Positions 1,893-3,672 of a stretch of 64,000 bases of DNA are shown here, one piece after another (the stretch's first letter is position 1; each line of letters starts with the position of its first letter). Where the stretch lies: positions 62,001 to 126,000 of the forward strand of contig CAIJFI010000002.1 in NCBI GenBank assembly GCA_903819975.1. Direction: 5' to 3'. The translations under genes were made by a program, and so were the position numbers. A model generated the notes under the pieces. The model worked only from the letters and a program-made list of their open reading frames with translations, had not been told where the DNA came from and did no database searches. This DNA is from an uncultured Bacteroidota bacterium (lineage in GTDB: Bacteria > Bacteroidota > Bacteroidia > Chitinophagales > Chitinophagaceae).

Positions 1893-3548
1893 ATGAGTTT
1901 TAGAAATTACCAGGTGCCTTACAAAATAAACGAACAGTTTAAGAAAAAGGCAGCTTACTTTTCTATGGAATTTGCCATCCACCAACCTTTAAAAATTTAC
2001 AGCGGTGGTTTAGGCTTTTTAGCTGGTTCACATTTAAGAAGTGCATACGAACTAAATCAAAATATGATTGGCGTAGGTATCCTTTGGAAATATGGTTACT
2101 ACGACCAAGCAAGAAACCAAGATCAAACTTTACAGGTTACTTTCATGGAGAAAATCTATAGCTTCTTGGAAGATACTGGCATAAAGTATCAAATTTTAAT
2201 TCACGATCATCCAGTATGGGTAAAAGCATACTACTTAGCACCTAATACTTTTTGTAGTGCACCTTTGTTCTTATTAAGTACCGATTTACCTGAGAACGAC
2301 TATGTATCTCAAACAATTACTCACCGTTTATATGATGCAAACGTAGCTACTAAAGTGGCTCAGTTTATATTATTAGGTGTAGGTGGCGCTAAATTAATTG
2401 ACGAGTTAAATTTTGAACCAGAAGTTTATCATTTAAATGAAGCACACGGTTTTTCAAGTGCTTTCTACTTATTAAATAAATACAAATCATTAGACGAGGT
2501 TAAAAAACGTTTAGTGTTTACTACTCATACCCCAGAAGAAGCAGGTAACGAAAAACATGACATTTACTTATGTCATAAAATGGGCTATTTCTGTGGCTTA
2601 AGTATTGATGAAGTAAGAAAATTAACTGGTATACAAGATGATCAATTCAATCACTCATTAGCTGCATTGCGTTTTGCAAGAAAAGCAAATGGTGTTTCTG
2701 AATTACACGGACATGTAAGTCGTGAAATGTGGGGTAAGCACGAAGGCATTTGTCCTATTGTACATATTACCAATGCACAAAACTGGCGTTACTGGGCCGA
2801 CAAACAATTATACAAATTTGCTGAAGCAAATGATGATGCAGGTTTTGATGACCGTAAAATGTATTTGAAAAAACGTGCTTTTGAAATAGTTGCTGATCAA
2901 ACAGGAAAAGTATTTGATCCAAATGTTTTAACTATTGTTTGGGCAAGACGTTTTGCTGGGTACAAGCGTGCCGATTTCCTTTCATGGGATTTAGAGCGTT
3001 TCGAAAAATTATTAGGCAACTTAAAGCACCCAGTTCAAATCATATTTGCTGGAAAACCTTACCCTGTTGACTATCCTGCAATTTCTCAGTTTAACAACCT
3101 GGTTCACTTAAGTAAGAACTATAATAATGTTGCTGTTTTAATTGGATACGAATTAGGATTAAGCAAGCGTATGAAACAAGCATCGGACGTTTGGTTAAAC
3201 AACCCTCGTGTACCAAGAGAGGCTTCAGGTACTTCTGGTATGACTGCTGCAATGAATGGCGCCGTTAACTTCTCAACAGACGATGGATGGATTCCAGAAT
3301 TTGTGAACCATGGTAATAACGGGTTCGTAGTTCCTAAAGCAGATTATGCAAACATGAGCACTCAGGAACAAGATGATTACGATTTAGACGAATTATATAA
3401 AATATTAGAAAACGAGATTGTACCAATGTATTATGAAAAACGTGATACATGGCGTTCAATTACTAAGAACGGAATGAGAGATGTAAGATTCCAATTTGAC
3501 AGTAATAGAATGGCAGAGGAGTACTACGAAAAAATGTACAAAATGTAA
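1893..3548 (+). CDS. glgP: Alpha-glucan family phosphorylase (GT35, short type)
   Basis: A 551-residue GT35 protein that would phosphorolyse alpha-1,4-glucan to glucose-1-phosphate in the cytosol. Seen: N-terminal AYFSMEFAI and YSGGLGFLAG motifs of the short bacterial/archaeal type, HLNEAH, TTHTPEEAGN, and the phosphate-site motif RRFAGYKR. The PLP-loop region reads EASGTSGMTAAMNGA; family members carry Lys at the position that is Thr451 here (codon 3243-3245), so the usual Schiff-base lysine is absent. At 551 residues it is shorter than the 700-850 of many homologues. The ATG at 1893 directly precedes the conserved N-terminus. A 17-bp terminator follows at 3551. Family assignment is firm, catalytic activity is uncertain. 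Confidence 0.88.
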   Translation: MSFRNYQVPYKINEQFKKKAAYFSMEFAIHQPLKIYSGGLGFLAGSHLRSAYELNQNMIGVGILWKYGYYDQARNQDQTLQVTFMEKIYSFLEDTGIKYQILIHDHPVWVKAYYLAPNTFCSAPLFLLSTDLPENDYVSQTITHRLYDANVATKVAQFILLGVGGAKLIDELNFEPEVYHLNEAHGFSSAFYLLNKYKSLDEVKKRLVFTTHTPEEAGNEKHDIYLCHKMGYFCGLSIDEVRKLTGIQDDQFNHSLAALRFARKANGVSELHGHVSREMWGKHEGICPIVHITNAQNWRYWADKQLYKFAEANDDAGFDDRKMYLKKRAFEIVADQTGKVFDPNVLTIVWARRFAGYKRADFLSWDLERFEKLLGNLKHPVQIIFAGKPYPVDYPAISQFNNLVHLSKNYNNVAVLIGYELGLSKRMKQASDVWLNNPRVPREASGTSGMTAAMNGAVNFSTDDGWIPEFVNHGNNGFVVPKADYANMSTQEQDDYDLDELYKILENEIVPMYYEKRDTWRSITKNGMRDVRFQFDSNRMAEEYYEKMYKM

Positions 3549-3550
3549 TT

Positions 3551-3590
3551 AATTAAAACGCCCTTAATAGAATTTAAGGGCGTTTTAATT
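3551..3590. terminator. Bidirectional terminator between glgP and the Gfo/Idh/MocA gene
   Basis: A perfect 17-bp inverted repeat (3551-3567 with 3574-3590) encloses a 6-nt loop. The outer stem is A/T-rich, so both strands end in a U-tract. It lies 3 nt after the glgP stop and downstream of the convergent gene ending at 3673. One arm (TTAAGGGCGTTTT) recurs unpaired at 3658-3670. Confidence 0.85.
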
Positions 3591-3672
3591 TTATCTCTTA
3601 TTATTTTTTCAAACCACCCCATAAAGGAGTGCTTTGATTTACTTTATCTTAAAAAATTAAGGGCGTTTTTAT

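Follow-up and report, generated by a model that had tools for sequence, protein, structure and literature searches.

Within the window, a stretch of 64,000 nucleotides from an uncultured member of the Chitinophagaceae, an open reading frame on the forward strand (1893-3548) starts with ATG and encodes a protein of 551 amino acids. The protein matches the NCBIfam model TIGR02094, named alpha-glucan family phosphorylase, with 435.7 bits (cut-off 191.7) and the Pfam model PF00343 with 54.8 bits (cut-off 27). With the NCBIfam glgA model it scored 42.8 bits, under the cut-off of 328.45, and with the GT4-type domain PF00534 22.6 bits, below the cut-off of 26.4. Its nearest solved sequences are the alpha-glucan family phosphorylases 9l6i and 20yr. 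Three phmmer alignments, with these two and with 4l22, place a lysine (EASGTSGEK, EASGTGNMK) at the column of Thr451. The features of the locus, with the columns of glycogen phosphorylase (GP) to which we assign them, are as follows.

1893-3548, forward strand: coding sequence of a GT35-related TIGR02094 protein without the PLP lysine (open reading frame and family models)
2526-2528, forward strand: His212, kept, presumably GP His377 (alignment tally)
2772-2774, forward strand: Asn294, kept and followed by the clade-only Gln296; presumably GP Asn484 (alignment tally)
2946-2966, forward strand: R352 R353 ... K358, the Arg/Lys phosphate set with R-x4-K, kept (alignment)
3162-3164, forward strand: Ser424, at the column that we take to be GP Ala653, a PLP neighbor (alignment tally)
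3174-3176, forward strand: Lys428, invariant and clade-only, a candidate relocated lysine (alignment, predicted helix)
3219-3263, forward strand: EASGTSGMTAAMNGA, the GT35 PLP motif, residues 443-457 (translation, alignment)
3243-3245, forward strand: codon ACT for Thr451, at the PLP-lysine column, which we take to be Lys680 of rabbit phosphorylase (translation, alignment)
3551-3590, no strand assigned: 17-pair stem-loop just past the stop codon, terminator-like on both strands (stem-loop prediction)

The preliminary description of this DNA had proposed that Thr451 replaces the PLP lysine and that the active-site region, with RRFAGYKR, is otherwise preserved. Both statements hold: the ACT codon gives threonine within EASGTSGMTAAMNGA, the segment WARRFAGYKR is present as residues 350-359, and the tallied residues are retained. 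The sequence TTAAGGGCGTTTT from the terminator stem appears again about 80 bases downstream, at 3657-3670 of the window.

Distribution, constraint and origin of the Thr form

A protein search covered 296 genomes of the phylum, 199 of which matched. Most of the matching genomes carry longer proteins with about 31-43% identity; the short form, at an identity of at least 54%, was found in 33 genomes and is present in two copies in G099 and G190. A search at class level, over 395 genomes, brought in 13 further genomes that carry the short form and 10 that carry long fusion proteins. Open reading frames of about 1,320-1,370 amino acids (one genus-level group, f87 g176; L199-L205 from genomes G365, G449, G395, G332, G497, G422, and G540) carry the GT35 domain in their second half, and the PLP lysine is present in all seven that were fetched out of ten. 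The first half of one of them resembles, by eye, a GT3-type glycogen synthase. A further 80 loci, the best 80 of 596, were taken from genome contigs and are 79-98% identical; one metagenome-assembled genome (MAG) among them is labeled Comamonas (L050), and we take the other MAGs as Bacteroidota.

Among 111 loci chosen by similarity alone, which include the window's own gene twice, column 451 holds threonine in 110, serine in one and lysine in none. The earlier suggestion that the threonine may be common to many Bacteroidota homologs was therefore borne out. After merging and removal of identical sequences, the alignment contained 127 distinct proteins with threonine (125) or serine (2), and lysine was found in 22 more distant TIGR02094 outgroup proteins and in two classical phosphorylases. 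This tally grouped the rows by residue 451 itself, and the split agrees with the trees and with identity to the window protein, which is at least 51% for Thr/Ser rows and about 40% or lower for Lys rows. Two more Thr proteins are encoded on plasmids (Pontibacter actiniarum, Runella rosea), so that the close relatives amount to 127 with Thr and two with Ser (n = 129 distinct, window included). Ten of 11 other plasmid-borne relatives carry lysine, with the residue of the eleventh (L218) outside this count; they include short proteins from Alphaproteobacteria, Gammaproteobacteria, Chlamydiota, and Cyanobacteriota. Sampling beyond Bacteroidota consists of such plasmid-borne genes. No relative was found in viral contigs, and three of 50,697 phage records matched.

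All four threonine codons are in use at position 451 (ACT 51, ACG 30, ACA 19, and ACC 12, with TCG and TCT once each; n = 114). Comparison of the window gene with five close relatives gave dN/dS values of 0.017-0.029, which are rough because they come from a simple Nei-Gojobori count at dS 0.96-2.5; a sixth pair was saturated. Selection on the Thr-type protein is strongly purifying. A strain-specific mutation, a sequencing error and a pseudogene are ruled out by the shared Thr/Ser, the varied codons and this purifying selection.

Eleven glucose- and phosphate-site columns as well as Trp301 and Thr447 do not vary across the 127 clade rows. We take the invariant columns to be rabbit Gly135, Leu136, His377, Asn484, Trp491, Arg569, Tyr573, Lys574, Glu672, Ala673, Ser674, Gly675, and Thr676. 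R352, whose counterpart in phosphorylase presumably grips the PLP phosphate, is Arg in 126 clade rows and Lys in one, and Y419 is replaced by His in two rows, with Tyr in the other 125. Thus, the columns that mark GT35 at the glucose and phosphate sites (His377, Asn484, Arg569, Lys574, Glu672) are present in the protein, and the PLP lysine of EASGTxxxK is absent. Judged by its sequence and descent the clade is GT35, yet it is without the defining PLP lysine and should therefore not be named a PLP phosphorylase.

The clade has changed at other places too. At 25 positions the clade has a residue that reaches 95% conservation or more among its members and occurs in none of the 22 Lys-type rows; these include Thr451, Ser424, Lys428, Gln296, Tyr390, Val349, Trp350, and Gly418. 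Ser424 is found in all 127 clade rows, versus Ala or Gly in all 22 Lys-type rows. Lys428 is likewise present in 127 of 127 clade rows and also in the two plasmid proteins (L206, L207), with Val, Thr or Ile in the Lys-type rows; it follows Ser424 by four residues, and both lie in a predicted helix (421-430). The loss of the lysine would therefore have been accompanied by a rebuilt pocket. That position 451 is only ever Thr or Ser suggests that a hydroxyl may matter here, and we read that as a probable change of function around this spot and not as decay. Dead enzymes normally lose some of their catalytic residues. Of the possibilities raised in the preliminary description, a lineage with a PLP-free or non-covalent mechanism is consistent with all findings; a regulatory glucan binder is unlikely, since the tallied catalytic residues are invariant in every clade row.

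Phylogenetic trees were built from 44 and 48 hand-picked rows, with the two classical phosphorylases as the distant group. In both trees, the Thr/Ser proteins form one side of a single branch that is supported at 100/100 and whose long stem measures 1.45 and 1.3 changes per site, respectively. Their sister is L112, a 575-aa frame from genome G231, which has lysine (support 95/95 and 98/97). The two Ser proteins, L025 and L126, sit apart within the clade. Because the Thr proteins are one clade and its sister carries lysine, the PLP lysine was lost once in the rows sampled, and lysine in L112 and in the outgroups identifies it as the older state. A relic that predates the acquisition of PLP is unsupported, as the sister and all groups outside the clade have lysine, with non-Bacteroidota represented by plasmid genes only.

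Glycogen genes and gene neighborhood

In the window's own genome the only PF00343 (GT35) protein is the one encoded at 1893-3548. This genome also has full GlgA, GlgC and GlgB, encoded in one run together with an MFS transporter and a cyclomaltodextrinase, and we infer that it can make and open glycogen without a phosphorylase. No classical phosphorylase above cut-off and no long Lys-type GT35 match turned up in any of the 33 Thr-bearing genomes from the 296-genome search, and these 33 are the Thr-bearing genomes that the classical-phosphorylase test covered. Among 68 genomes, a classical phosphorylase above cut-off was found only in G148 and G240, both without the Thr form. Thus, the Thr form and the PLP-type enzyme exclude each other in the 33-genome sample, and the Thr protein therefore stands in for the PLP enzyme there.

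Glycogen synthesis is only loosely tied to the Thr form. GlgC, at an E value of 1e-40 or lower, was present in 24 of 33 Thr-bearing versus 11 of 20 Thr-lacking genomes of the class, and GlgB, at 1e-100 or lower, in 28 of 33 versus 13 of 20, which is a weak co-occurrence; 77 more negatives lie outside the sample of 20. Nine Thr-bearing genomes are without GlgC. Four of these have GlgE (G049, G146, G186, G190), and three lack GlgE but have a GH57 protein (G076, G111, G194). The Thr-bearing genomes G072 and G166, which belong to one genus, gave no match to full GlgA, GlgB, GlgC, GlgE or GH57 at the thresholds used, and in both the Thr-type gene is near a cyclomaltodextrinase. Ten of these 20 Thr-lacking genomes encode complete GlgA, GlgB and GlgC but gave no match to GT35. 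A phosphorylase is therefore not obligatory, which counts against a phosphorylase-like role for the Thr form.

The genome G146, which is without GlgC and full GlgA, encodes in one run (L175, 204-11768) a GlgE-type maltosyltransferase, a 1,104-aa protein of the alpha-amylase family, GlgB and a GH57/DUF3536 protein. All 56 genomes tested in the window's own class contain a separate frame of about 260-400 amino acids that covers no more of the GlgA model than the N-terminal third to half, even beside a full GlgA. A GlgA-type fragment in Bacteroidetes is mentioned in a review (PMC11046441). The idea that the Thr form is the glycogen synthase of Bacteroidota with such a fragment is weakened by the full GlgA, GlgC and GlgB of the window's genome and by the gene content of G072 and G166.

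Outside the Chitinophagaceae, we saw no general operon around the Thr-type gene. Within this family a protein of cluster 1 is encoded at position -1 in 75 loci, a link that says little because the genes beyond are also kept in order. The cluster 1 member in the window is a 318-aa protein (827-1783) with a lipoprotein-like start (MRKWCFIGLMSLLFACG) and without a Pfam match at E 1e-5. A phosphoketolase was found in five of 46 Thr-bearing genomes. In three of the five it lies beside the Thr-type gene on the same strand: in G261 as the next gene after 30 bases, in G080 with one gene between, and in G557, where adjacency was judged by coordinates only. In G618 and G253 the two genes are far apart. 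We roughly estimate a chance of about 0.4% that a given gene lies within 10 kb of another in a genome of 4.5 Mb. This link is support, not proof, since G261 and G557 are of one genus and the family first came to notice in G261. A phosphoketolase gene also precedes the short Lys-type glgP of Criblamydia, and this shared adjacency supports the phosphorylase reading.

On the Pontibacter plasmid the Thr-type gene follows genes for a type II GAPDH and a DUF1622 protein. Lys-type glgP genes have similar neighbors, namely GAPDH and phosphoglucomutase in Indioceanicola and DUF1622 in Methylophaga. Against a phosphorylase-like role, however, DUF1622 occurs in four of the 46 Thr-bearing genomes and beside the Thr-type gene in none, and the GAPDH-II model, which is perhaps too narrowly built to cover the bacterial type, matched in none of the 46. 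On the Runella rosea plasmid (L207, 7642-8082), the gene for a pyridoxamine 5'-phosphate oxidase family protein comes some 30 bases after the Thr-type gene. The family name is generic, but such a neighbor is a curious one for an enzyme that has no PLP lysine.

Possible activities of the Thr-type protein

An AlphaFold2 model was calculated from 41 sequences (mean pLDDT 80.5), with pLDDT below 50 in parts of the active site (29-41, 68-88, 354-356, and 441-445). VIA-align placed the model first with the Segatella copri phosphorylase 9l6i (Z 30.0, 519 residues, 3.2 A), which was also first in Foldseek (TMq 0.82), where all 50 matches listed are phosphorylases. E. coli glycogen synthase with ADP reached Z 28.5 (3cop) and Z 28.3 (2qzs) over 435 residues at 2.7 A. 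The predicted fold favors neither phosphate nor a nucleotide sugar.

The most likely explanation, to which we give about an even chance, is that the Thr-type protein is an active retaining alpha-glucosyl transferase of the GT-B fold with a phosphorylase-like role, working without lysine-anchored PLP. The enzyme would descend from a Lys-bearing alpha-glucan phosphorylase and would have given up the anchored cofactor. Its reaction would be glucosyl transfer between an alpha-glucan and phosphate, as glucose 1-phosphate. The residues of the glucose site and of the phosphate clamp (R353 and K358, with R352) would have been kept, and the ring pocket would have been rebuilt with hydroxyls (Thr/Ser451, Ser424) and perhaps a new lysine, K428. 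Catalysis, phosphorolysis or its reverse, and the occupant of the PLP pocket are what we infer here. This chance divides almost evenly: an enzyme with no PLP at all, by analogy with the GT4 trehalose phosphorylase, which works without PLP, would be slightly more probable than one in which PLP is held without a bond or is bonded to K428. A phosphorylase-like role is countered by the description of GT35 as needing PLP (PMC4336185), and the phosphoketolase link covers three of 46 genomes. The trehalose phosphorylase carries an RXXXXK motif according to PMC12018205, which also cites phosphate-analog work on pyridoxal-reconstituted glycogen phosphorylase; phosphorolysis at a site of this kind may therefore in principle not depend on the bond between lysine and PLP.

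A nucleotide-sugar-dependent alpha-glucosyltransferase, similar to glycogen synthase, is a serious though still unlikely alternative; here the nucleoside of NDP-glucose would fill the old PLP pocket. Thr451 is at the site where, as we assume, the second Glu of the GT-B E-x7-E motif touches the ribose, and the clade has E-x7-T spacing. The clade-only G418 and S424 form a GT5-like GY...LS, similar to the GYxEELSH segment of three of eight GT5 rows. At column 349, however, the likeness to GT5 is on the Lys-type side, whose Gly and not the clade Val equals two of three readable GT5 rows, and R352, which is kept in the clade, is absent from the readable GT5 rows. The model matches the ADP-bound E. 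coli synthase nearly as well as the phosphorylase. Five Thr-type proteins scored 22.3-49.9 bits with the glgA model, exceeding five of six Lys-type proteins (L119 at 18.9 bits, and four without a match at E 0.01). But the sixth, the Lys sister L112, scored as high as the Thr type (40.9 bits), and the profile comparison with GT5 was about equal for Thr-type (E 2.7e-13) and Lys-type proteins (E 8.3e-12). A swing of the Thr clade toward GT5 in profile scores is hence not clear. A nucleotide-sugar enzyme would be in line with the proposal, made in a review, that PLP replaced a nucleoside monophosphate in proto-GT35 (PMC11046441), but the window's genome already contains GlgA and GlgC.

The remaining alternatives fare worse. 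Retention of PLP with its Schiff base moved to Lys428, a sub-case of the phosphorylase-like explanation, seems improbable. The strict restriction of this lysine to the clade and the plasmid proteins L206 and L207, and its place in one predicted helix with Ser424, would suit such a move, but parts of the active site are modeled at pLDDT below 50, and the role of Lys428 may instead be to contact phosphate, ribose or another subunit. Hydrolysis or transglucosylation of maltodextrins is quite improbable as the activity of the Thr-type protein: the cyclomaltodextrinase neighborhood and the gene content of G166 and G072 would fit it, but the phosphate clamp is invariant and needless for a hydrolase. 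A catalytically dead glucan-binding or regulatory protein is highly improbable, as the lost anchor of a cofactor described as required in GT35 (PMC4336185) is set against tallied catalytic residues that are invariant even among proteins whose identity falls to 51% (800 sampled pairs).

Whether by PLP-free phosphorolysis or by reversion to a nucleotide sugar, we consider the odds balanced that this whole GT35 clade works with no PLP. We know of no prior PLP-free activity in GT35. The clade is a natural test of whether GT35 works without a bound cofactor and of what PLP does in this family, and it bears on the interconversion of phosphorylases and nucleotide-sugar transferases. If it indeed has no PLP, the clade would have naturally reversed the step by which PLP use is proposed to have arisen in GT35. 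GT35 is described as uniquely requiring PLP among phosphorylases, as holding only phosphorylases and as having no clear framework for new activities (PMC4336185). All characterized members are alpha-1,4-glucan phosphorylases according to PMC8950772. No description of the Thr clade was found among the open-access papers listed in literature searches. Proteins annotated as glgP, "alpha-glucan family phosphorylase", such as WP_025603925.1 and WP_114070759.1 (both Thr), may not be PLP phosphorylases, and glycogen breakdown inferred from that name in Bacteroidota is thus unsafe.

Comparison with known systems

The short Lys-type TIGR02094 phosphorylases (L112, L208 of Indioceanicola, L210 of Criblamydia) are like the window protein in size (561-636 amino acids in nine rows) and family motif, and that of Criblamydia shares the phosphoketolase neighbor with some Thr-type genes. 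They keep the PLP lysine, however, and the Thr clade differs from Lys-type rows at the 25 positions given above. The S. copri glycogen phosphorylase (PDB 9l6i) is the best match in sequence and fold, but it has 852 amino acids with extra N- and C-terminal parts and the lysine in EASGTSGEK. GT5 glycogen synthase (E. coli GlgA; 2qzs, 3cop) shares the GT-B fold and the R-x4-K pair and is nearer in length (476-477 residues). In contrast to what we propose for the Thr-type protein, it uses ADP-glucose, and the window protein is far under the glgA cut-off. The GT4 trehalose phosphorylase of Schizophyllum commune is a retaining phosphorylase that belongs to a glycosyltransferase family and has the RXXXXK phosphate motif (PMC12018205, PMC4336185), a motif common to many glycosyltransferases (PMC12018205) and present in the window protein as R353-FAGY-K358. 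It differs in belonging to another family, with PF00534 below cut-off in the window protein, and in its substrate, trehalose.
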